Assembly (NCBI GenBank): GCA_015231325.1
Contig: JADGBS010000013.1
Location: forward strand, 1 to 38,001
Length of the DNA stretch: 38,001 nt
Reading direction: 5' to 3'
Source of the DNA: Oligoflexia bacterium
GTDB lineage: Bacteria > Bdellovibrionota > Bacteriovoracia > Bacteriovoracales > Bacteriovoracaceae
Position numbers and translations under genes: made by a program
Shown here: piece after piece, positions 2,949 through 38,001 of the stretch
How the letters are laid out: each line of letters opens with the position of its first letter
How positions within the stretch are numbered: position 1 is the stretch's first letter
The notes under the pieces: generated by a model
Told to the model about the DNA's origin: nothing
The model's database searches: none
Seen by the model: the letters and a program-made list of their open reading frames with translations, nothing else

Positions 2949-4091
2949 ATGGATGAAACGAAGAAGGATAACAATATAATGCAAAGGCTATTTAATGCGC
3001 ATAAAAATCCTGAGGTAAATAGTGAAGGTCAGGCCGAAGAAAGTGTAGTTAGAAATGTAGAAAATGCGAGTAACAGTGAAGATCATCTTAACAAAGAGAC
3101 GGCAGGTGGAACGACAAATACTATAGGTATAGATATTGGAACTAGCCGAATCGTTAGTTGTAAAATCGGTACTGATCGCAAGGAAGTTTCGCAATCAGAA
3201 TTAAATGCATTCTTTTCCATTCCACTCTCTCCTATGACTAGGGAAATATTAGAGCGAAATGGAATGCATTACACTGAACTCAAAAATCAGTTGGTGGTTT
3301 TTGGATATGATGCACAGCGTTTTGCAAATATGTTTAATGGTGAATTACTGCATCCAATGCAAGAGGGGCTTTTAAAGGCAGATGAGCCTAATGCTACTCA
3401 CATGATAAAGGAAATTATCACTTCACTGATAAAAAAACCGCGTGAATTGGGACAAAAATTATGCTTTTCTATTCCTTCGCCAAGGGCAGGAATGGAAAGT
3501 GATCTTGTTTTTCATGAGGCGATTTTAAAGAAATTTTTTGTGGGACTGGGGTACAATGCTTTTAGTGTTAATGAAGGTTTGGCAGTAATTTTGTCTGAAT
3601 TGGCATCCGAAAATTATACGGGAATTGGCATTAGTATTGGGGCGGGTATGTGCAACGTCTGTTTCTCCTTCCTCTCCGTCCCGGTTATAACTTATGGTTT
3701 GCCCTGCGGTGGTGACCTCATTGATCTGAGCGTTTCCAGAGTAATTAATGAATCAATAACCAGAGTAAGGGTAATCAAGGAAGAGTCGCTGGACCTCAGT
3801 CGGGCACCGAAGAATAATCTGGAACAAGCACTGCACATCTACTATGATGATATGTTGTCTAAGATTGTTAACTCTTTGGCCAATACCTTTTCTAAAAGTA
3901 GTAACTTGCCGAAACTTAGTCAACCGATTCCCTTGGTGTTGGCGGGTGGACCATGCATTCCTAATGGTTTCAAGACTAAATTTGATAAAATGTTAAGATA
4001 TGTAGAATTACCGTTGGAAATATCGGAAACTAGAATGGCCGCCGATCCACTTCGTGCCACGGCCAGAGGTGCGTTGGTATATTCTAAATGA
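2949..4091 (+). CDS. Actin-like (MreB/MamK/ParM superfamily) ATPase with long N-terminal extension
   Basis: Phosphate-1-like IGIDIGTSRIVSCKIG, phosphate-2-like GIGISIGAGMCNVCFSF, adenosine-like PLVLAGGPCIPNGF. RBS GGGAGG upstream. Confidence 0.75.
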   Translation: MDETKKDNNIMQRLFNAHKNPEVNSEGQAEESVVRNVENASNSEDHLNKETAGGTTNTIGIDIGTSRIVSCKIGTDRKEVSQSELNAFFSIPLSPMTREILERNGMHYTELKNQLVVFGYDAQRFANMFNGELLHPMQEGLLKADEPNATHMIKEIITSLIKKPRELGQKLCFSIPSPRAGMESDLVFHEAILKKFFVGLGYNAFSVNEGLAVILSELASENYTGIGISIGAGMCNVCFSFLSVPVITYGLPCGGDLIDLSVSRVINESITRVRVIKEESLDLSRAPKNNLEQALHIYYDDMLSKIVNSLANTFSKSSNLPKLSQPIPLVLAGGPCIPNGFKTKFDKMLRYVELPLEISETRMAADPLRATARGALVYSK

Positions 4092-4111
4092 TTTAGACTA
4101 GGAGTGAAATT

Positions 4112-4465
4112 GTGAATGTGGACTATGATACATTTCCAATAGAGAAGCGAAGACATACTCGTTTTACTATTTCTGGGTCGGCATTTGAATTTGAAGATAA
4201 ATTATATGAAATTGCCAATCTCTCTGCTAGGGGAATACTATTGGACTTGCAATCGAGGGCCGTCGCGGCAGGGGGGGCATCAGAGATCGTAGCAAAAGTG
4301 TTGGATAAAAATAAATTTGATTTCAATCTGGTCGACACCTCATCGAGGAGCAAATTACCCCTCAAGGGAAGAGTGGTCAGGGTTATAAAAGAAAACGAAC
4401 GGGTGGTTGCCTTAGCATTACAATTTTCACTTTTAGAAAATTCTCAACAGGAAGGAACTTATTAG
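4112..4465 (+). CDS. PilZ-domain protein (putative c-di-GMP receptor)
   Basis: PilZ signature EKRRHTRF...IANLSARGILLDL, GRVVRV. Start GTG/ATG near 4112-4118. Confidence 0.8.
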   Translation: MNVDYDTFPIEKRRHTRFTISGSAFEFEDKLYEIANLSARGILLDLQSRAVAAGGASEIVAKVLDKNKFDFNLVDTSSRSKLPLKGRVVRVIKENERVVALALQFSLLENSQQEGTY

Positions 4466-5312
4466 TCGAATATGGGCCATCGGCGGAGGGAAGGGTGGGG
4501 TGGGTAAAACCATCGTCACTGTTAATCTGGCCCTAGCGCTGACGGAAACTGAAAAAAGAGTAGTCATTTTAGATGCAGATTTTGGAAATGCCAATGCACA
4601 TACCCTTTTAGGCATAACTGAAGTTAAGCAATCCATAGAGGATTTTTTTGTCCGAGATGCAAACTTAAATGATCTGATATTGAAAACCAATTTTAAAAAT
4701 TTATACCTAATTTGCGGAGGAATGAACAAGATTGATTATGCACTTTATAAAACTAATGGCCTAAAAAAACAGATCAGGGAGATACTCGCTGATTTCATAC
4801 TGCTGGATTTGGGTGCAGGAATTAGTAATGAGCACTGTGAATTGTATAATCTTGCCGACGAAAAAATTATGGTAGTTACCCCCCAACTTACCTCGCTGCA
4901 AAATGCCTATAGTTTTGCTAAATCCACCTTTATGGAAGATTTGCGCAGCGTAAGAGAAATGTCTATCTGTTTGCAACACATCGACAATGATCTTTTTCGT
5001 TTGGTTCAGGCAATTAAGAAACTTCCTTCCGAACATTTTCTACATAATAAGTTTGCTCAAGTACTTAAAAAGCAAAAGATGTGGATATTGGCAAATATGA
5101 CTCATGGAGAAAAAGAGTTACATACTGTGTATGAACTAAAAAACTTGGTTAAGGAATATTTGGAAATTGAGGCGACCATCCTAGGCGAGTTAGGTGACAG
5201 CAGAGATGTCCAAAATTCGATAAACGAGATGATTCCTTTTATAATGACCAATCCACAATCAGAGAACGCTAAGCGACTACGAAAGATTGCTTTAAATTTG
5301 TCTGAGTATTAG
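4461..5312 (+). CDS. FlhG/MinD/ParA-family ATPase; most likely start is ATT at 4461 (the ORF track starts inside the Walker A motif)
   Basis: The frame encodes ISRIWAIGGGKGGVGKTIVTVNLALAL (deviant Walker A), then VVILDADFGNANAHTLLG and ILLDLGAGI. No ATG/GTG/TTG lies between the in-frame stop at 4434 and the GTG inside the Walker A at 4500. Confidence 0.85.
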   Translation: MSRIWAIGGGKGGVGKTIVTVNLALALTETEKRVVILDADFGNANAHTLLGITEVKQSIEDFFVRDANLNDLILKTNFKNLYLICGGMNKIDYALYKTNGLKKQIREILADFILLDLGAGISNEHCELYNLADEKIMVVTPQLTSLQNAYSFAKSTFMEDLRSVREMSICLQHIDNDLFRLVQAIKKLPSEHFLHNKFAQVLKKQKMWILANMTHGEKELHTVYELKNLVKEYLEIEATILGELGDSRDVQNSINEMIPFIMTNPQSENAKRLRKIALNLSEY

Positions 5313-5419
5313 TTTAGATGAAACGGTTTTTCCCTTCCGAAAATACTCTGGTTGTAGTAACATGAAAATCGTTCTAATGCTCAATTAATAATGTGTTCAA
5401 ATTTTGGAGGTTGCTTACG

Positions 5420-5593
5420 ATGATAACTTTGAAAGTTTTGGGGGGAATTTTGGGCTGGATCTTGATTATACTTGGCGGAATTTATTTGGTCCGTAAAACG
5501 AGAGGTGGAGCTGAAATGCTTAACTCGATTAAGAATTTTGGTACTCAGGTGAAAAATTCTTTTTTCGAGGGGTATGCCGAAGCCGTTAATTAG
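5420..5593 (+). CDS. Small single-pass membrane protein (about 57 aa)
   Basis: RBS TTGGAGG 9 nt before ATG 5420. Hydrophobic VLGGILGWILIILGGIYLV, then a basic stretch. Confidence 0.6.
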   Translation: MITLKVLGGILGWILIILGGIYLVRKTRGGAEMLNSIKNFGTQVKNSFFEGYAEAVN

Positions 5594-5678
5594 TAGACAG
5601 ATATCTACTTAGGCATATATCCACGCAGGCATATAACCCAAGTATGCTTTCAAGTATGCTTTAAATATGGAGTCCGCT

Positions 5679-6971
5679 ATGTGTAAAGCAAGCAACATTA
5701 TGAAAAACACCACCGAAGCAGTATGTCAAAAAGGCCTATGTTTAACTAATATCATCGGAAAATCGGTTTGTAAGTCGATTGGCAAGTCGATCGGTAAATC
5801 GGTTGATTGTGTAGAGGGATTGTTCAGCAAGATTTCTTCCTGTTGTAGTAGTTGTAAACGACCTAAGTTGCCATCAGTTGCTGACTTTGATAGCAAAAAA
5901 ATATCCGGTTTTTTTACCGGTGGGCTAAGGAAAAAATTTGGAATTAATAAATCAGAGGTTAAAGAGCGCATAACCCTTCTCAAAAACTTGATAAACAATC
6001 TCTACTTAGAAATGGGCAAGGTTGGATCAAAAATTGAAAGCGAGGAAAATATTTTCGACAACCGAGAAGTTCAAACCATCATGGTGCAAATTGAAAAGCA
6101 TGAAAAAGAGATCAATTCTTTGAATAGATACTTGGCAGAAATTGAAGAATTGGAAAGAAAAAATGTTCCGCTGACTGAAGTAAATATCGCGATCAAAAAT
6201 GAAGAACTATTGGAAGGTGTCGATAAAAAGATACAACAGGCGATTTCTCAATGTATTAAAAAAGCAAAATTTTCATTGAAGTCCGATGCTATTGTTTATC
6301 AAAAAGTTTTGTACGATTTATTAGACAAAGAGATTGACATTCGGAGACTAGCGGTTGGTCAATTGGCCAAAATTGGTGAAAAACATGCCGCTATAGCGTT
6401 AAAAGAGGTTTTGAAGATCCAAAATCATCAGCTGCAAGCTGAGGTTATCAATGCCTTAATTCAGCTTGCGGACGGAGATATTTTCAATATTTGTAAAAGC
6501 TTCCTAAAGCACGATTATGCTGCTGTTCGCGCTGCCTGTGTACGTGGTCTGTATAAGGCCAATCAACCAGAATCTATTCCCCTGATAAACTCTGCGCTTC
6601 AAGATGAAAATGCTGAGATTAGAAACTCTGCTGCCATGTTTTTAGGTTGGTTAGATGCACGATCAGCAGTTCCCTCACTGCTACAGGCAACGGTGGATCC
6701 AGATCGCAGAGTTAGGCTAAGCGCCATATCCTCTTTGGCCAATATTCGTGATGAAGCATCAGTACTGCCTTTGTCTAGAATATTAAACACTGATGAACAG
6801 GATATTCGTCGAAAAGTTATCGAAGCACTGAAAAGAATATCCGGAGACAACTTTCCTTTTAACCATGAGGCAAATGAGGCAGAACGAATTCGAGAAATAG
6901 CCGAGTTTAAAGATTGGTATTTACGCAAGAAACATGGTGTAGAAAAGCATGGGGTAGCGGATGAAAAATAG
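5679..6971 (+). CDS. HEAT-repeat protein with Cys-rich N-terminus and coiled-coil region
   Basis: HEAT-type repeats (DIRRLAVGQLAKIGEKHAAIALKEVL, AAVRAACVRGLYKANQPESIPLI, AEIRNSAAMFLGWLDARSAVPSLLQA, RRVRLSAISSLANIRDEASVLPL). GGAG precedes ATG 5679; the track start at 5667 is an alternative. Confidence 0.8.
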   Translation: MCKASNIMKNTTEAVCQKGLCLTNIIGKSVCKSIGKSIGKSVDCVEGLFSKISSCCSSCKRPKLPSVADFDSKKISGFFTGGLRKKFGINKSEVKERITLLKNLINNLYLEMGKVGSKIESEENIFDNREVQTIMVQIEKHEKEINSLNRYLAEIEELERKNVPLTEVNIAIKNEELLEGVDKKIQQAISQCIKKAKFSLKSDAIVYQKVLYDLLDKEIDIRRLAVGQLAKIGEKHAAIALKEVLKIQNHQLQAEVINALIQLADGDIFNICKSFLKHDYAAVRAACVRGLYKANQPESIPLINSALQDENAEIRNSAAMFLGWLDARSAVPSLLQATVDPDRRVRLSAISSLANIRDEASVLPLSRILNTDEQDIRRKVIEALKRISGDNFPFNHEANEAERIREIAEFKDWYLRKKHGVEKHGVADEK

Positions 6972-8133
6972 GGAAAACGTAGGCGGTAACGTAGGCGGCA
7001 TGGATAGTGTGCAAGGCAGAGTGGCCGGCCCTAGCTACTCCGAGGCAGAGAATTTATTGCTTGCAAGTGGGCCGATAAAACCGCTTAAGAAGATTATTTT
7101 ACAAATAAAAACTAATGCTCCTATTGAACTTATTCGTGAAGATTATCAGCATGTTGCAGAAACTTGGTTGAAGGTTTCTAAGCTTAACCACGAGCAAGGG
7201 ATTATCCAAAAAATCCAGAGCGTAAAAAATAAACTTGATACGGCCAAACTTGATACCGCGAATGTTTCTCATAAAGAGTTGCTTGCAGAACTTGAGGAAT
7301 TGGCCAGTCTCTTCCCGCAACAGCTGGTTTTGCTGATTCAAAAACTTCTGGAAAATGAAATCTCTCTCGAAAATCTAGCAGAATCGCCATCTTGGAGTCA
7401 CCTATCTCATTTCGAATTTTTGCTAAAAACATTTTCGCCGATTAGCGATCAGGACATCACCCTGCTAAAAGAGCATGGAGTGATGAATGAAAATGACTTC
7501 AATCGCAGTGACCCTTTGGATTTGGCCAATACTCTGGATATGCCATTTGGCAGAATCCTAGAGTTGAAAGCAATTTTTCAGGAATATGGCCAATTAAAAG
7601 AGAAAAGAGAGCTAGGGTTTAAAGTTCTGGAGATGCATAAGATAAATATGGAGTTAACCAAAGAGATTGAGAATCTCTCTTCTGCAAATAATATATTAAT
7701 TGAAGGGAATAAAGGTCTACGGAACAAGAGTGATCAGATTTATCCACAGTATCTCGAAAAGATCCAGCTAATGCGCGACTTACAGAATAAAATCACCACC
7801 GCACAAATTGAGAGCAACCGTTTAGCGATGGAAATTGCTTTTTTGAAAGAAGAACGAACAAAGCTTTCTTCTCAGGCAGAGGAGAAACACTTGTCACTGG
7901 GGAAAATCTTACGACGCATCGAGACGGTTAAAAAGAGCTACGATTTTATCAAAGGGGAAACCACTTTTTCGCAGGATCTATTAGATCACTTAGACTCACT
8001 ACTGGGTGATGCATTGAAGTGTGGTCGTGTGTTGGGAGATAAATTGGATGACACTGAGCGATCCTTAGAGTCTGCTCTATCCGAAATTAGTGAAACTATA
8101 AAAAAAGGCAAAACGATATTTTATCAAAAATGA
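6961..8133 (+). CDS. Coiled-coil protein, unknown function
   Basis: Start overlaps the end of the HEAT gene. Long heptad-rich Leu/Glu/Lys stretch (ILELKAIFQEYGQLKEKRELGF... to the C-terminus). Confidence 0.7.
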   Translation: MKNRENVGGNVGGMDSVQGRVAGPSYSEAENLLLASGPIKPLKKIILQIKTNAPIELIREDYQHVAETWLKVSKLNHEQGIIQKIQSVKNKLDTAKLDTANVSHKELLAELEELASLFPQQLVLLIQKLLENEISLENLAESPSWSHLSHFEFLLKTFSPISDQDITLLKEHGVMNENDFNRSDPLDLANTLDMPFGRILELKAIFQEYGQLKEKRELGFKVLEMHKINMELTKEIENLSSANNILIEGNKGLRNKSDQIYPQYLEKIQLMRDLQNKITTAQIESNRLAMEIAFLKEERTKLSSQAEEKHLSLGKILRRIETVKKSYDFIKGETTFSQDLLDHLDSLLGDALKCGRVLGDKLDDTERSLESALSEISETIKKGKTIFYQK

Positions 8134-8172
8134 TTAAATAATGATCAAGTAATGATCAAATAATGATTAAAT
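8129..8172 (+). repeat. Four tandem 11-bp units AATGAT(T/C)AA(A/G)T spanning a coiled-coil gene stop codon and the following gap
   Basis: aatgattaaat / aatgatcaagt / aatgatcaaat / aatgattaaat read consecutively at 8129-8172. Confidence 0.85.
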
Positions 8173-8186
8173 AATTAGGAACACCC

Positions 8187-8897
8187 ATGGTAGAAAATAT
8201 CGGCAGAGAACAAGAAAGTGAACAAGAAAATGAACAGAACACTCTCGGTTTAAACGGTTTAAAAATCAAAACTTTCGATCATGTAGACAAAAGAAAAATA
8301 AAAGAACAGTTAGAGCGGATTTCTAAATTAAGGCCCTCTGATTTATTAGATTCGAGTGAAAATGAGTTTAAAAATAATGTTACCGAGATGTTCGCCATCA
8401 TCAAAGATTTAGAAAACAATTATCGAGGAACGCTAGAGCTTAACACGGTACTTAGAGGCGAATTACAAGAAAGTAGACAGCATATTAAAGAAGTGACTAG
8501 TACTAACAAGGAATTACAAAAAAAGCTTTCTTGCTTAGAAAATACTTCTCCTTTACTGGGAGAAATCGAACAAAGGATGGAACTGGCACTGCAAGAACGA
8601 GAAAAATACAAAGATCTCTATCAAGAAGTAGAATTGCGTAACCAGAATTTATCTAAAAATATTGAATTGCAAAATCAGTTGTTGGATAAAAGGAAAGAAG
8701 AAATCGAGGATGCGCATAAGGAGATCATTATTCTGGAAGACAAGTGTAAGCATTATCATGGAGATGAATTTGATAGAATAAAACAATTAGAACTAAAGGT
8801 GCAAGAGGCAATTGCCGAAAAAGAAAAAATAGCGCAGGAACTGGCGGATAGCAAAGCAGCATTAAGGGAAATTCATAAGGAACTAAGAAGTGAATAA
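8187..8897 (+). CDS. Coiled-coil protein, unknown function
   Basis: Almost continuous charged heptads over about 200 aa. Co-directional with flanking coiled-coil genes. Confidence 0.7.
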   Translation: MVENIGREQESEQENEQNTLGLNGLKIKTFDHVDKRKIKEQLERISKLRPSDLLDSSENEFKNNVTEMFAIIKDLENNYRGTLELNTVLRGELQESRQHIKEVTSTNKELQKKLSCLENTSPLLGEIEQRMELALQEREKYKDLYQEVELRNQNLSKNIELQNQLLDKRKEEIEDAHKEIIILEDKCKHYHGDEFDRIKQLELKVQEAIAEKEKIAQELADSKAALREIHKELRSE

Positions 8898-9654
8898 TAA
8901 ATCAACTACGCTTAAAGAGACAATCCACCAAAGTTGGGATAAAATTAAGGTTCGCTATCCGATGGTTATTGATGAGACTCCGGTTAAAGGAGATCCAGTA
9001 AAAACAGAGTTTTTGCGTTATATTGATGGCCTAAAGAACGTTGAAGAAATCAGTCACTATTTTACGTTAGAACCTGGGGAAGCGCATCTTATTTTTTCTG
9101 ATTTAATTGCAATTAAGGCCATTCGCTTTATTGATGATTTTGAGCGGTTAGTCTTTCTTAAGCGACGAAACTCGGAGCTTAAGGGCAATTATGATTTCTT
9201 AGTTGCTGAACAAAATAAGTTAAGTGGGGAAAAATACTATCTTTGCAAACAAATCGCTGCACGGGAAAAGGAGATGCTTTCTATTACAGAAGCGATTCCA
9301 GGGTTAGAGCAAAAACTTCAAGAGTTTAATAATGAGTTAGATATCCTTAAATCCAGTTCTAGTGAGCTTTGGAACTATAACTCCGAGCTGTTAGGACTTT
9401 TTAAAGATATGAGTTCTAAAGAACAAGAGATCAACGGACTTCTTGAAGAGATTGAATCGGCATATCCCAAAGCGATTAAAAAGAAAAAAAGAATGTCCAA
9501 ACTTCTACAGGAAGTTGATGAACGAGTTGTTGATGCCAACACTAAAAATTTGACATTAAAACGAAAAATTTCAGTTTATCAAGATGCTCTCTCAGATGTT
9601 CGCGAATGTCTATTCGATGCAAATGTTCATATCAAATATTCTAAAAACGAATAA
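8890..9654 (+). CDS. Protein with N-terminal winged-helix-like segment and C-terminal coiled coil
   Basis: GTG start overlaps the upstream stop. FLRYIDGLKNVEEISHYFTLEPGEAHLIFSDLIAIKAIRFID resembles the C-terminal segment seen with DUF4388-type proteins; then coiled coil. Confidence 0.6.
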   Translation: MNNKSTTLKETIHQSWDKIKVRYPMVIDETPVKGDPVKTEFLRYIDGLKNVEEISHYFTLEPGEAHLIFSDLIAIKAIRFIDDFERLVFLKRRNSELKGNYDFLVAEQNKLSGEKYYLCKQIAAREKEMLSITEAIPGLEQKLQEFNNELDILKSSSSELWNYNSELLGLFKDMSSKEQEINGLLEEIESAYPKAIKKKKRMSKLLQEVDERVVDANTKNLTLKRKISVYQDALSDVRECLFDANVHIKYSKNE

Positions 9655-9691
9655 ATGAATAAAGAATCTAATGAATACTAAATAGGCCACA

Positions 9692-10808
9692 ATGATTCTA
9701 AATCTATTTTCTAGAAAAGAGCACAAAGACCACAGTGCGCACAGAGAGCGCGCGCATAGAGAGCGCACTATTCCCGGAGTAGCGATTGTGGGGAATATGT
9801 GTGTGGGAAAAAGTACCCTCTTTGCAAAGTTATGTGGAACCGAGGTTAAAAGCGTTAATTATCCTGGAACCACCGTTTCTATCGCTGCCGGAAATATAAA
9901 AGGATTGCAAAAGTTGGCATTCGACACCCCCGGAACCTGCTCGATTTTCACTCACAGTGAGGATGAGAGAGTCTCCCGCGATTTTTTTCTCTCCTTTGAT
10001 CAGATAAAAAAAATTAGAAATATCGGTCTCGAAAATGATCGTATCGAGGCGGCAATCTTAGTAGCGGATGCTAAAAACTTGAAACGCTCTCTTGCTCTGG
10101 CAGTTCAATACGCCGAATATGGCGTGCCTATGCTCTTAGATATTAACATGATGGATGAGGCACATAGTCGTGGAATTGTAATTGATCATCAACGTTTATC
10201 CGATATTCTAGGAATTGATGTCTGCTGTTCGGTGGCCACTGAAGGCGAAGGCATAAAAGAAATTAAAGCTAAGTTAACTTCAGTACGTACCCCTCATCAG
10301 CTAATTAAATATCCACAGAAAATTGAAGATTTTATACGGATTACTGAAAAAATATTAAACAAATGTCTTAGTACGATGACCCAGAGTGATGTTTATGATG
10401 CTGGTCAAGTATGTATTTCTCGGGGGATGGCGTTACTGTTGCTAGTTGCCGACAAAAGTGCGGAAGAATATGTTAGACATACTTTCGGCGAGGAAACTTT
10501 ATTACAAATAAGAGATTTACGTTCCATCAACCTAAGAGATGAAAAAATTCCAGTTAATATTTTGCTCACCAATATCTTTAATAAAAGGGCAGAAGAAATT
10601 CTTGCTGAAATCTATCAGGAGCGTGGGCGTCGCAAAAGCTCTTATCTTGAAAAATTTTCCCATTGGTGTATGCACTTAGAGACAGGTATTCCTATCGCCT
10701 TGGCCATCATTTATCTGATGTATCTATTTATTGGGGTATTTGCAGCTGGTTATTTGGTAGACTTAATCAACAATAAACTTTTTGCCGAAACCATTACTCC
10801 CTGGGTAG
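9692..10808 (+). pseudogene. feoB: FeoB-like ferrous iron transporter, N-terminal GTPase plus first transmembrane segment, truncated at a breakpoint (the ORF runs on to 10969 through antisense cheB sequence)
   Basis: G1 GNMCVGKST, DTPG, INMMDEAHSRGI (G4-like NxxD), then TGIPIALAIIYLMYLFIGVFAAGYLVDLINNKLFAETITPWV. Residues after PWV are antisense to cheB. Confidence 0.8.
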
Positions 10809-11058
10809 TGTGTGAACTTAGAACGATGACATTGGAACTGATTTGTTGTATTTTTAGTTCTTCCAGTACCTGGATTCCGGAGAGTTCTGGCATTTCAATA
10901 TCCAGGGTTACTAAATCTGGTTTTAGGGAGATGATTTTTTCTAGAGCAGTTTTACCGTTATCAGCATAATCAATACTTTCGATTCCAGAAATTTCCTCTA
11001 GTATGTGCGTGATACTTTTTCTGAAAATTTTTTGGTCATCGGCCACTAATATTTTCAT
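10798..11058 (-). pseudogene. cheB: CheB receiver domain fragment, truncated in REC; methylesterase domain absent (the ORF runs on to 10750)
   Basis: MKILVADDQKIFRKSITHILEE, PDLVTLDIEMPELSGIQVLEEL, SNVIVLSSHTTQG. After TTQGV the sequence is antisense feoB. Confidence 0.75.
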
Positions 11059-11174: not shown

Positions 11175-11669
11175 TTAATTATCATCACCCTCTTTATTTT
11201 CTCTTAATAGTTCATCGATATTGAGAATAGTGATCAAATGTCCGTTGTAACTGTAAACCTCCGATAAAAATCTATTAATGGATTTATCAATGTTGGGAGG
11301 AAGTCCTCTGATATTCTTTCCTTCTAGCGGAATAACCTCGGCGGCCCTATCAACAACTAGGCCAACACCTTCACCTTTCCATTCAACAATAATAATTTCT
11401 CCCGATTTTTTTTGTTCAGAAGAAATTCCTAGTTTTAATGCCAAATCTATAACGGTAATAATTCGTCCCCGAAGATTAATTACTCCTAAAATGTAGATGG
11501 GTGCATGATAGACCATTGTAAATTCTGAAAATTTAATAATCTCCTGAATACGAAATGCATCTATTCCATAGCAAGAATTTCCAATATTTAAAGAGAGTAC
11601 ATTATTTATTACCACCTTTGTGTCGCTTATAGGTGGATTTACAGAAGGGGTGTTGGCAATTGCTTCCAT
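11175..11669 (-). CDS. cheW: CheW-like chemotaxis coupling protein
   Basis: YGIDAFRIQEIIKFSEFTMVYHAPIYILGVINLRGRIITVIDLALKLG and IIIVEWKGEGVGLVVDRAAEVIPL. Confidence 0.93.
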   Translation of the reverse strand: MEAIANTPSVNPPISDTKVVINNVLSLNIGNSCYGIDAFRIQEIIKFSEFTMVYHAPIYILGVINLRGRIITVIDLALKLGISSEQKKSGEIIIVEWKGEGVGLVVDRAAEVIPLEGKNIRGLPPNIDKSINRFLSEVYSYNGHLITILNIDELLRENKEGDDN

Positions 11670-11700
11670 ATTTGATTACGCCTTCATATGGGTTATACAG

Positions 11701-13389
11701 TTATGCTACTTTGAACTTTGAGGTCAATGTTTTCAACTGATCGGATAGTTTTGTCAATTCGCTAGAACTATCTTGCACCTGCTCTCCTGCATTTTTTAAA
11801 TTGATTGCGGAGACACTCACATCTCCGATTTCTTTCGCCATATTCTGAGAAACCTGTGAAACTTGACTGACCTGCTGATTTGCTACTTCCACTTTTTTAG
11901 ATGCTTCGAAAATGTTTTTAGCAATATCTTTGGTAACCACCGATTGTTCCTCTATTGCACTGGCGATACTGGCGACGATGCTGCTTACATCTTTGATAAT
12001 TTGTGAAATTTTATCGATATCAGAGATGGCGGTGCTAGTAGATAATTGTACGCTGCTGATTTTATTTTTAATATCTTCGGTAGCAACTGCTGTTTGTTGT
12101 GCCAGTTCCTTGATTTCATTGGCCACCACCGCGAAACCCTTGCCAGCAGCGCCTGCGCGAGTGGCCTCGATGGTTGCGTTCAATGCCAGAAGATTGGTTT
12201 GGGCCGAAATTCCGTTAATTGTTTCTGTCACTTTGCCGATGTCTTGCGCTGCTTGACCTAATTGTTTCATCACAGTACTGATTCCTTTTGCTTGGTCAAC
12301 TGCCTCGGAAGTGATTTGTCGCGCTTTCTCCGAGTTATTGGCTATCTCCCCAATGGTAGAGGTCATTTCCTCAGTTGCAGTGGAAATACTGGTGAGGCGA
12401 GTGCTGGCATTTTCCATATTACCCACCACCGAAATCGAGTTAGAACTCATTTCTTCTGCGGCCGCGGCAACTGTTGACGATCTGTCGGAAGTCTGTTGAG
12501 TGTTGGTTGCCATTTGACCGGAAACTTCAACTAGCTCGGTAGAAGAGGAGACCAGCGTATGTACACTAGTAGTAACATCCCGAATAATATCTTTTATGTT
12601 TGTATTCATCGCATGAAGTGACTTAGCGGCCGTTCCCATTTCATCGCTGCGGACTTGGGCACTTTTGGACACAGAAACCGAAAAATCTCCTTCTGCCATT
12701 AGTTGCAAGTGCTTAGTCATTCGATCCATAGGGATAGTGATGCTGTTAGCGATTTGAATACCCATAATAATGGTACAACTTATCATAATAACCAGCAAGA
12801 TAATCACGTTTCTAATCGAATCATCACCAGACTTTGCTAATTCACTAAAACGGAATGCATTTCTATCCTCTTGGTATTTTATGAGAGTGTCTGCAACAGT
12901 GTTTATTTCCAAAAATGACGGATACACTGCTTTGTTAAAAAAAGGAAGAAATTCTTCCATTTTATTATTTTGAATCATATCAAATGCAGCATTATTATTG
13001 TTTTTGGCGTTAATAATATTTTCTTTGAACTTGGATATTATTTTTTGTCCTTCTTCGAGAACTTCAAGTTTAGTAAGCTCCTCAAATGCTTTTGCATATT
13101 CTGTTCTACTTTCTGTAATATCATCATGTGCTTGCTTGAGTGCGGTAGGGTCTTTCAGAAAAGCAAGTCTGGCCATTGAAAAATATATATGGGTTATCTC
13201 TTGTTTGATAGTGTTAGCATACTTAATTTTATTATTATTCACCACCATTATCCGATTATACTTATTGGTAAAATTATTGATCAGCCATACTTCTTGAATA
13301 ATGCCAATAACCATGAAAAGGATAATAATCGCATAACCAACCATTAGTCTTGTTTTAATCCTAATATTTTCTAAAAAATCTCGTATCAT
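11701..13389 (-). CDS. Methyl-accepting chemotaxis protein (four-helix-bundle-type sensor, HAMP, MCP signalling domain)
   Basis: Hairpin tip ETINGISAQTNLLALNATIEATRAGAAGKGFAVVANEIKELAQQTA. N-terminal TM and second TM before HAMP. ATGA overlap with CheA. Confidence 0.95.
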   Translation of the reverse strand: MIRDFLENIRIKTRLMVGYAIIILFMVIGIIQEVWLINNFTNKYNRIMVVNNNKIKYANTIKQEITHIYFSMARLAFLKDPTALKQAHDDITESRTEYAKAFEELTKLEVLEEGQKIISKFKENIINAKNNNNAAFDMIQNNKMEEFLPFFNKAVYPSFLEINTVADTLIKYQEDRNAFRFSELAKSGDDSIRNVIILLVIMISCTIIMGIQIANSITIPMDRMTKHLQLMAEGDFSVSVSKSAQVRSDEMGTAAKSLHAMNTNIKDIIRDVTTSVHTLVSSSTELVEVSGQMATNTQQTSDRSSTVAAAAEEMSSNSISVVGNMENASTRLTSISTATEEMTSTIGEIANNSEKARQITSEAVDQAKGISTVMKQLGQAAQDIGKVTETINGISAQTNLLALNATIEATRAGAAGKGFAVVANEIKELAQQTAVATEDIKNKISSVQLSTSTAISDIDKISQIIKDVSSIVASIASAIEEQSVVTKDIAKNIFEASKKVEVANQQVSQVSQVSQNMAKEIGDVSVSAINLKNAGEQVQDSSSELTKLSDQLKTLTSKFKVA

Positions 13390-16300
13390 GCTGCCTCCCG
13401 TGCGACGTTTTGCTCGTCAGTTTTTTCTTGTTGATGTTGTCCCGTTGAGGACAACATCTGCCTGATAGATAATAATAATTTTTCCTTCTCTAATTTTATT
13501 TGGTAATCATTGATTCCTGCAATTTTGCCCTTTTCAACATCGGCCGTATCGGCAAGCGCGCTGAGGGCAATGATAGGTATATGAGAAATATTTTTCTCAG
13601 CTCTGATTTTTTTAGCAAGGTCCAGACCACTTAACTTGGGCATTTCTATATCGGTTAAAACCAGTGAGATCTCGTTCCCTAAATCTTGTAGTACTTTCCA
13701 AGCATCTTGACCGTCTTCGGCAGTTACCACTTTGTATCCTATTTCTTCGACAAATTTTCTAATTTGTTCACGGAAAAATTGAGAATCTTCCACTAGCAAA
13801 ATAGTTGTGGGGGTCCCTCCCTTTTCCTTATGTACTTGATGAACTTTTTGTAATTCGTTAAGAGTATTGTTTTTCCACTGGGGATAAATTGTTTCAACAA
13901 TTTCAAAGATATTTACTATCAGTGTTGTTTGGTCATTGATAATACATGATCCTAAAATTCCATTTTGCGTGTGGACCGATTGATCCAATTGAATGCTTAT
14001 TTCTGCGATATCTAGTGGTCTGGCCGCGAGTAGTCCAAATTCTTTGTTATACAGTTGGAATATTATCATTACCAAACTTTGTTCTGGCGTAAAATCTGCA
14101 ACGTTGGCCACATCCTTTATGCATAGTAATGGGATAGAGGTTCCTTGATATTGAACAGTTCTCTTTCCTCCAAGGTTTAAAATATTATCACGTTCGATGG
14201 ATAGTATTCTTGAGACCAGGCCCAAGTTGACAGCACAGTTTTCGTTGATAGAATTTTTAAATAGCAGAAAAGAAGGTATTTCCCCTGCCTCTTTAGTGCT
14301 GATTAAACTTTGCTCAAGTTGCTTATTCCATCTGGAAGAACCTGAGGAAGAAAGAATATTTGTTTTAATTGCCAACCCGTGCACATCTAGTATCGTGGCA
14401 ATTCTTCCGTCTCCAAGAATAGTTGCACCCATATATTCTTTAAGGTGTTTTAGATGTTTTCCAAATGGTCTAACTACAATTTCTAGTGTTTCATGTATAG
14501 CATCTACTATGATTCCATATTCTTGGACTCCAGTGTTGACGATCACCACATTTAAATCATTAACTTCAGCTATGTCTTCGATCGAAGGAGATTCATTTAT
14601 GAGGAATCTATTTAAACGAATTATAGGAACTAATTTTTCGCGAATGATAATTACTTCCGAATCGCCTAACGTTTCCAAACGTTCGCTTATTTGTTCTTTT
14701 GCAATCCGGATTAATTCAATAACGTTCACCTGTGGGATAGCAAACTTTGAACGATTAATGGAAACTAGTACTGAAGGAATAATTGCTAAGGTGAGTGGTA
14801 GTTTTATCTTAAAAAGGGTTCCTATTCCTTCCTCCGATTGGATTTCAACTTTTCCGCCAAGATGATCGAGATTACTTTTTACTACGTCCATGCCCACGCC
14901 CCTACCAGAGAGATCGGTAATTTTTTCGGCAGTGGAAAGACCAGGAAGAAAAATCAAATCTACTTTATCTTTAAAAGACATGTTTTTTAATTGTTCTTCG
15001 TTTATTATTCCCTTATCTAGGGCCTTTTTGACTATTTTTTCTGTTTGAATTCCCTCTCCATCATCATCAATCTCAATCACTACTTGACCAGCATCATGAT
15101 AGGCATTCAACTTAATTGTACCAGCGGGATTTTTCCCTCGTGCCTTTCGGACCTCGGTGGTTTCTATTCCATGGTCGATGGAATTTCTTATCATATGATT
15201 TAAAGGATCAGACAATCCTTCCAAAATTGATTTATCAATATCTACTTCTTTTCCGGTGATCACTAATTTAATCTCTTTGTGTAATCCTTGGGTTAAATTA
15301 CGAACAACTCTGGGAAACTTATTAAATAAATTTCCAATCGGTTGCATTCGTGTTTGCATGATAGTTTCTTGTAATTCGGAGGTAACTAGATTTATTTTTT
15401 GCTTGCTGGCCTTAATTAAACGCATATCAGATTTATCCACAGCATTCATTAATTGATTCCTGCCCAAAACAAGTTCTCCGGCAAGATTCATTAGTTCTTC
15501 CAAAAGATCAACATTTACACGTAGAGTGTTTTCGGCATTAATATTTCCTGCGGTTGTGAATGGCGATGTCGTCGTTGCGACAGTAACACCTGAGGAAGAG
15601 GTTCTCTCTGTTTGCTGCTGTTGGTTGAATTCAGTATTATCTATTTTGGTTTCTACTTTGGGTTCTATTTGGGGCCCTATTTTTGGTTCCATTTTAATTT
15701 CTTCCATACTCTTTTCCGGTGTTACTATCATTTCTTTTTCTGGATCCAGTTCATGTCCCCCAGTCTGTTGAATACTGGGAACAATCTTTTTATTTCCAAA
15801 ATTAGAGATTAGAATTATTTGCTGCATCGGAATTTCAAGTATTTTACTTAAGTCCTCTTGAGATAATTGAGATGCATAAGCGATTGTGAAGGGTAATGTT
15901 TTAGCAAAATCATCGTCTAAAGACCCTACTGCGCTAATATCCACATAGCTGTCAATTATCAATCCTGTTTCGGCAAGTCGCTTAATTTCCTTAATGGGAT
16001 TTTTATTTTTTTCTTGCAGATCGTGAATTAGGTCGTAGTGCAGAGCGTAGATGTTATGACCATCTTGTAGTGCCTTAAAAACCTCATATTCATCGACAGT
16101 TGAGAGATTGTGGGCGGCCAGTTCTTTAAAATCAAAGGTACCGCCGCTACTATCAGCAGGAGTAGATACGGCCTTTAAAGAGATTAGATTAGATAATGCA
16201 TTACCCAAATCTTCAACATTTATTTGTTCAATATCATCATGATGATTGATTAAATTGCGAAGCATATCAAATGAAGCTAAAAGGATATTTATTATTTCCG

Positions 16301-16550
16301 GAGAAGGGAATAATTCCTTTGTTCGCATTAGGCCTAAAACATTCTCTACCTTGTGGGATAATTCTTTTATTTTGTGCAAACCGAGAAAGCCGGCACCCCC
16401 TTTTATACTGTGGGCCGCCCGAAAAACTTTATTTATCAAATCATTGTCTAAGCTGGCCCCCTGTGATTCGATTGTTAGTAAATCATTTTCAATATTAGTT
16501 AAATGCTCTAATGAATCACTAATATAGTCACTAACGATATCGTTGTCCAT
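13386..16550 (-). CDS. cheA: Hybrid chemotaxis histidine kinase CheA with tandem CheW-like domains and C-terminal REC
   Basis: HPt AAHSIKGGAGFLGL, N-box HMIRNSIDHGIE, DDDGEGI, GLSTAEKITDLSGRGVGMDVV. Two CheW-like regions, then REC TTILLVEDSQFFREQI...LVLTDIEMPKLSG...ALSALAD. Confidence 0.95.
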   Translation of the reverse strand: MDNDIVSDYISDSLEHLTNIENDLLTIESQGASLDNDLINKVFRAAHSIKGGAGFLGLHKIKELSHKVENVLGLMRTKELFPSPEIINILLASFDMLRNLINHHDDIEQINVEDLGNALSNLISLKAVSTPADSSGGTFDFKELAAHNLSTVDEYEVFKALQDGHNIYALHYDLIHDLQEKNKNPIKEIKRLAETGLIIDSYVDISAVGSLDDDFAKTLPFTIAYASQLSQEDLSKILEIPMQQIILISNFGNKKIVPSIQQTGGHELDPEKEMIVTPEKSMEEIKMEPKIGPQIEPKVETKIDNTEFNQQQQTERTSSSGVTVATTTSPFTTAGNINAENTLRVNVDLLEELMNLAGELVLGRNQLMNAVDKSDMRLIKASKQKINLVTSELQETIMQTRMQPIGNLFNKFPRVVRNLTQGLHKEIKLVITGKEVDIDKSILEGLSDPLNHMIRNSIDHGIETTEVRKARGKNPAGTIKLNAYHDAGQVVIEIDDDGEGIQTEKIVKKALDKGIINEEQLKNMSFKDKVDLIFLPGLSTAEKITDLSGRGVGMDVVKSNLDHLGGKVEIQSEEGIGTLFKIKLPLTLAIIPSVLVSINRSKFAIPQVNVIELIRIAKEQISERLETLGDSEVIIIREKLVPIIRLNRFLINESPSIEDIAEVNDLNVVIVNTGVQEYGIIVDAIHETLEIVVRPFGKHLKHLKEYMGATILGDGRIATILDVHGLAIKTNILSSSGSSRWNKQLEQSLISTKEAGEIPSFLLFKNSINENCAVNLGLVSRILSIERDNILNLGGKRTVQYQGTSIPLLCIKDVANVADFTPEQSLVMIIFQLYNKEFGLLAARPLDIAEISIQLDQSVHTQNGILGSCIINDQTTLIVNIFEIVETIYPQWKNNTLNELQKVHQVHKEKGGTPTTILLVEDSQFFREQIRKFVEEIGYKVVTAEDGQDAWKVLQDLGNEISLVLTDIEMPKLSGLDLAKKIRAEKNISHIPIIALSALADTADVEKGKIAGINDYQIKLEKEKLLLSIRQMLSSTGQHQQEKTDEQNVAREAA

Positions 16551-19671: not shown

Positions 19672-21626
19672 ATGATTTCAATGCTTTCTTTGATGCGAAC
19701 GTTTATGTTTACTAGGCCATTTGGCAAATCACTACTTTGTGCTTCCCTACTTTGTGCACCTTTTATCATCGGTATTACTGACAGTTCTATTGCTATCGGC
19801 GATGAGCGTTCAGACATTCCGATAAAATACACCTGGAATCTCAACGACCTCTATCCAACTATTCAAGATTGGGAGACATCCAAAGATAGGATGTTTAGAG
19901 AAATTCCTAAGGTTGCAGCTTTCAAAGGACATCTAGGCACTTCGGCACAAAATCTGTATCAGGCACTTTCCACAGAAATGGATGTACGTAAAGAAGTTGC
20001 ACGGTTAAGCGTTTATGCGGGACAACTCTCTGATCAGGACACACGAGTCGCTAAACACCAAGCTATGAAACAAATAACTGAACAACTCAGCAGCGACTTT
20101 GCTTCTGCGACTGCATATTTTCGACCAGAAATCGTGCAAATAGGAAAAGCAAAAATTAGCACTTTTTTAAAAAATGAACCTCGTTTAATGGAATATAGAA
20201 TGTACCTGGACAACATCTTACGGATGAAAAGTCACATTCTTTCTCCAGATAATGAAAAAATAATAGCGGCAGCACTTGGGCAAATGGGAGGATCACCACA
20301 AAACATTAATGAAATACTCGATAATGCCGACATCCCCTTTCCTACTATACAACTCAGCACCGGAGAAACCGTCCGATTAGATCCAGCGGCCTTTACAAAG
20401 TATCGTACGGTGGCAAATAAAGATGATCGGATTTTGGTTTACAAAAGTTTTTTTGGAAAATATAAGGAATTTGCCCGAACTCTAGGAACAGTTCTTTACT
20501 CCCAAATTAAAGTACATGTATTCAACAAGGAAGTAAGAAAATATAATAGCTCCCTGGCCGCATCACTAGATCCTGATAATATTCCCGAAGCCGTTTACAA
20601 GCAGTTAATTACAGATGTACACGCTAATCTTCCTACACTCCACCGCTATCTAAGACTGCGACAAAAGATGATGGGATTAGAGAAACTCGGATATGAAGAT
20701 CTCTATACCTCCTTAGTGAAGGATGTTTCCATGTCCTTTACTCCTGAAGATGCAATTGATTTAACTATGAAATCCGTGTCATTGTTAGGAAACGAATACA
20801 CCAGCGCTTTAGACAAGGAATCGATAATCGATGGACCGATTTCTATCCAGCAACCGGAAAAAGATCTGGTGCCTATAGCAATGGTGCAGCTTATGATGTT
20901 CATCCTTATCAACTGCTGAATTTCATGGGCGGATATGACGATGTATCAACTTTTGCACACGAGAGTGGGCACAGCATGCACTCTTACTTCTCTAACAAAT
21001 ACCAACCATATATCAATAGTGACTATTCCATTTTTGTGGCAGAGGTAGCATCGACGCTTAATGAGAATCTACTATCACACTATGCCTTAAAAAATATTAC
21101 TAGAAACAATCAGGAAAAACTATTTTTGTTAGGAAGTAAACTAGAAGGATTCAGAACAACTTTATTCAGGCAAACTCTATTTGCAGAATTTGAATTAAAA
21201 ATACATGAAATAGTCGAAGCGAAAGGATCCCTATCGGATGAGCAGCTCAGTAAACTTTATCTGCAGCTATTAAAAATTTACTATGGGCATGATCAAGGGA
21301 TCTGTCAAATAGATGATATCTATGGCATAGAATGGGCACGCATTCCACATTTCTATTATGATTTCTACGTTTTTAAATACTCAACCAGCTTGGTGGCATC
21401 CACCGCCATCGCCAAGGCCATGCGCGAGGAGACCCAAAAGGGAGGAACTAGTGTACGCGATGCCTACATAAAATTTCTTTCTTCTGGATCATCAAAATAT
21501 CCCATCGAGTTGCTAAAAGGGGTCGGCGTGGATATGACTACCAGTAAACCATTCAACGCAGCGATAGAAGAGATGAACAGCATAATGGATCAGATCGAAA
21601 AAATGATCGCATCTACTCCCCAATAA
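19672..21626 (+). pseudogene. pepF: Oligoendopeptidase F-like M3 metallopeptidase with signal peptide, split by a frameshift near 20832
   Basis: ORFs 19672-20919 and 20925-21626. In the downstream frame WTDFYPATGKRSGAYSNGAAYDVHPYQLLNFMGGYDDVSTFAHESGHSMHSYFS is continuous from ~20832, including HEXXH (HESGH). The upstream frame carries the N-terminal PepF region. Confidence 0.9.
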
Positions 21627-37823: not shown

Positions 37824-38001
37824 ACCCTCCTATCGACAATATGCAAAAGAAATATTAATCTTTAATTTTTCTTTAATTTCATTGATCTTTTATATATTAA
37901 TAATTGATTTAAATAATATAGTAATACAATAATATACCGATATGTACGAGAATACACAAAGGATTGTGCAAGATACCACTAATTTCCACAGTTTTACCAT
38001 C

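Follow-up and report, generated by a model that had tools for sequence, protein, structure and literature searches.

A tail-to-tail junction of truncated feoB and cheB in an Oligoflexia contig is very probably a technical inverted chimera

Introduction

Among 475 chimera junctions formed during multiple displacement amplification (MDA), 85% were inverted with an intervening deletion; such chimeras are usually primed by a few complementary bases (up to 21 bp) and join sites that lie mostly less than 10 kb apart (Lasken and Stockwell, 2007; PMC1855051). In a larger set of MDA chimeras, the overlap between the joined sequences peaked at ~6 nt (PMC4595205). For magnetotactic Bdellovibrionota, 10–100 sorted cells were amplified by MDA and assembled with k up to 127, and the magnetosome clusters recovered contain mad17, 23, 25 and 27–30 and lack mamK (PMC13200544).

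Here we analyze a contig from an Oligoflexia bacterium in the light of both sets of findings. The window, 38,001 nucleotides long, is the whole of contig C44; the assembly to which it belongs comprises 470 contigs (4.37 Mb in total) and is estimated to be 66% complete. The original prediction held that a truncated feoB (+) and a truncated cheB (–) meet tail to tail in this window, and attributed this to either a rearrangement or a misjoin in the assembly. Our analysis confirms a discordant junction and narrows that choice: it is very probably a technical inverted chimera that joins neighboring segments of one genome.

Results

Two conserved genes are cut at a short stretch readable in both

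The feoB gene (9692–10806, + strand) retains its N-terminal 371 codons, matched by Pfam FeoB_N at 128 bits and encoding the GTPase and the first membrane segment, and loses its C-terminus at the junction. In an alignment with relatives, FeoB homology ends at residue 371 (ITPWV), and the open frame of 425 codons reaches beyond the joint only as antisense cheB. Facing it, cheB (10807–11058, – strand) retains an N-terminal receiver domain (Pfam Response_reg, 70.8 bits) and loses the linker and methylesterase domain. CheB homology to relatives ends near SSHTTQG, and its open frame of 102 codons continues past the joint only as antisense feoB. Pfam domains and homology stops thus bear out the predicted tail-to-tail truncation and place it at 10798–10806.

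The stretch that can be read in both feoB and cheB is TCCCTGGGT (10798–10806). A slightly longer microhomology, tccctgggtag, had been proposed; the shared TCCCTGGGT stands, whereas the last two letters are not in feoB, which has TCCCTGGGTTG. The microhomology of 8–9 bp is seen directly on the feoB side; on the cheB side, whose parent sequence is missing from the assembly, its length is deduced from protein homology. The T-Q-G codons suggest either TCCCTGGGT or CCCTGGGT as the probable stretch in common with the cheB parent; the Q-G pair at the junction also occurs in one relative, G002. G+C content and tetranucleotide make-up are equal on both sides of the junction, as expected if both come from one genome.

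The missing half of feoB lies at the end of another contig

Searching the assembly for Gate and FeoB_C domains located the missing C-terminal fragment of FeoB at the extreme end of contig C437. This contig (43580–43526, reverse strand) is identical to the window for exactly 55 bp (10752–10806), and the very next base differs. Past the overlap, C437 encodes the remainder of FeoB in frame, and the join between the two contigs is spanned by an alignment of FeoB from G001, a genome of the same genus. The two closest orthologues, in G001 (62% identity) and in G025, a genome of the same family (66%), are full-length, with open frames of 681 and 703 aa. Full-length cheB genes are likewise found in three relatives, G001, G002 and G055 (356, 372 and 358 aa). 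Were the two genes true pseudogenes or split genes that naturally end here, as the contig taken by itself would have it, neither these intact relatives nor the feoB continuation on C437 would be expected. We regard natural ends as next to impossible, in agreement with the original argument that two conserved genes could not both stop at this point.

An exact end overlap of 55 bp points to an assembler run at k=55, with one k-mer having two continuations, so that the overlap marks a branch point in the assembly graph. This value of k comes from the single C44/C437 overlap; confirmatory overlaps were sought at the window start and on C2 and were not found there. Since k went up to 127 in the MDA study of magnetotactic Bdellovibrionota (PMC13200544), the present assembly probably does not come from that work. 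Because C437 shares the 55 bp and then carries the FeoB C-terminus in frame, the normal feoB must be present in the reads. A de Bruijn path also requires reads that carry its k-mers, so the feoB–cheB sequence is presumably in the reads too.

A broken cheR marks the other end of a flipped segment

The rest of the chemotaxis operon (cheW, an MCP gene and cheA; 11175–16550, – strand) lies upstream of cheB in its true order. At the opposite end of the junction-bounded segment, the contig opens with the C-terminal part of cheR (2–463, + strand; Pfam CheR, 107 bits, profile positions 62–181), truncated at its 5' end by the contig start. In the three relatives (G001:C45, G002:C69 and G055:C1; 36–44% protein identity), the operon runs on a single strand from cheA through cheW, the MCP gene and cheB to cheR, with one or two small genes before cheR, and the best match to the window's cheR fragment in each is the cheR of this cheA–cheB operon. 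The two broken che genes therefore mark both ends of the segment 1–10806. In the relatives cheB and cheR share a strand, whereas in the window they lie on opposite strands, so the segment is flipped with respect to its true place. The distance from the cheB break to the start of the cheR fragment is 2.4, 2.5 and 1.6 kb in the three relatives, from which the joint would span about 12.4–13.3 kb.

A search for the missing part of CheB was less successful than that for FeoB, as no continuation was found as another contig end in the assembly. The contig start is also a dead end, with no overlap to other contigs found; both observations are as expected of a coverage drop-out. One contig, C311, was considered as a source of the missing CheB part and was not assigned, since no receiver accompanies its cheB sequence and a 760-codon frame comes after it in place of cheR.

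These positions bear on whether unrelated places were joined, by random ligation during library preparation or by an error in scaffolding or gap closing. Such events also create discordant junctions, and short homology can occur by chance. However, chance alone would place the partner no more than ~13 kb to either side in only ~0.5% of cases in a genome of ~5–6 Mb, and cheR at the contig start identifies the actual partner as the neighboring operon. The window contains no N run, which argues against scaffolding or gap closing. A joining of unrelated places is accordingly highly improbable.

Other discordant joints occur in the assembly

On C311, at ~350–430, a single CheB methylesterase domain is broken into two oppositely oriented parts, which makes this a further inverted junction, within a different cheB. 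The right end of the window is probably a second chimeric joint on C44: its last 69 bases (37933–38001) are identical to C442:31–99, where they form the beginning of an intact gene for an NlpC/P60-like protein, and past them the window diverges. Separately, an Oligoendopeptidase F-like gene (19672–21626) is present in two frames, split near 20850–20920, consistent with a one-base frameshift arising from mutation or sequence error.

A real inversion of the cheB–feoB segment, carried by part of the population or by this cell alongside the ancestral order, would yield an identical cheB–feoB junction, and the ancestral feoB junction on C437 would then show merely that un-inverted molecules also exist. 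Several observations weigh against it. Such an inversion would cost the cell two genes at once, one for magnetosomes/iron and one for chemotaxis, its reciprocal junction was not found in the assembly, and the further discordant junctions point to a general technical cause. Nor is the segment flanked by inverted repeats: none of at least 20 bp was found at the junction or the window start, and an invertible element flipped by site-specific or homologous recombination was rejected on this ground. We consider a real inversion very unlikely, and there is very little to recommend its reversible or polymorphic form, in which a mixed population would carry both orders, one of them interrupting both cheB and the magnetosome-cluster feoB.

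A technical origin is favored by the parental feoB on C437, the full-length genes in relatives and the position of the truncated cheR, at the far end of the flipped segment. The combination of inversion, deletion and a short microhomology (here probably ~8–9 bp) is the signature of MDA chimeras, and MDA is the likely specific cause; the joining probably occurred during MDA rather than library preparation. The span of 12–13 kb counts against this explanation, as it exceeds the under-10-kb class dominant among MDA inversions.

The flipped segment carries part of a magnetosome-type gene cluster

Between the cheR end and the junction lies part of a magnetosome-type cluster (2949–10806, + strand), comprising genes for an actin-like protein (Mad28-like, scored as Volactin by Pfam), a MinD-like protein (Mad29-like), a HEAT protein and three coiled-coil proteins, followed by the N-terminal part of feoB. 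The same gene set is clustered on G001:C31, where a DtxR/FeoA gene comes after feoB. Beyond feoB, C437 likewise carries a DtxR/FeoA gene, and in addition a MamB-like CDF transporter (best match NCBIfam MamB at 233 bits, below the strict cutoff of 350) and MamE-like proteins, of which one has a magnetochrome motif (Pfam, 33.9 bits, above cutoff). By gene content, the flipped segment and C437 together make up a magnetosome cluster, from a bacterium of the Bdellovibrionota/Oligoflexia type. On C437 itself, at ~42520–42535, the DtxR/FeoA gene stands tail to tail with feoB, whereas G001 and G025 have both in the same direction; this order may be a natural change or another chimera.

Discussion

We propose that a copied strand ended inside feoB and could have re-annealed through 8–9 complementary bases to the opposite strand inside cheB, about 12–13 kb away, where copying would have gone on. 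The product would be a tail-to-tail fusion of feoB with cheB that lacks the 1.6–2.5 kb separating cheR from the cheB break. During de Bruijn assembly, the path would then have run along the chimeric k-mers, so that the genuine continuation of feoB ended up on a contig of its own, C437, which starts with the same 55-mer.

With the segment turned back, the real order is most likely cheA-MCP-cheW-cheB, one or more short genes, cheR, response regulators, the magnetosome genes and feoB, continuing into C437. The cheB–cheR adjacency in this order is taken from gene order in relatives, the gap between the two falling outside the assembled sequence. In the real chromosome, the che, mad-like and feoB genes named here would most likely share one strand, with one regulator (1193–2590) pointing the opposite way. 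The arrangement suggests that the magnetosome cluster extends beyond C44 into C437 and would have the chemotaxis operon as a near neighbor, judging from the single stretch C44:1–2949; a cheR adjoining the magnetosome cluster was found in none of the relatives inspected.

Reading the junction as a chimera removes a false rearrangement. Annotation of the contig as it stands would give shortened FeoB and CheB proteins and misplace the border of the magnetosome cluster. The result is also a warning that C44, and probably other contigs of the bin, contain chimeric joints, with C311 and the right end of C44 as candidates.

Like the inverted chimeras of phi29 MDA (Lasken and Stockwell, 2007; PMC1855051), the joint described here connects sites in one neighborhood, in inverted orientation, with a deletion between them and probably a few complementary bases at the point of joining. 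It differs in its probable span of 12–13 kb, longer than most, and in that the microhomology is shown on the feoB side only. The cluster that it cuts shares with those of magnetotactic Bdellovibrionota (PMC13200544) the actin-like, MinD-like, HEAT and coiled-coil genes, feoB and the DtxR/FeoA regulator, as well as the MamB-like transporter, the MamE-like protease with a magnetochrome motif and two-component genes nearby. In contrast to those clusters, it lies here on two contigs and is mis-oriented by the chimera, and the Mad names we use denote likeness only.
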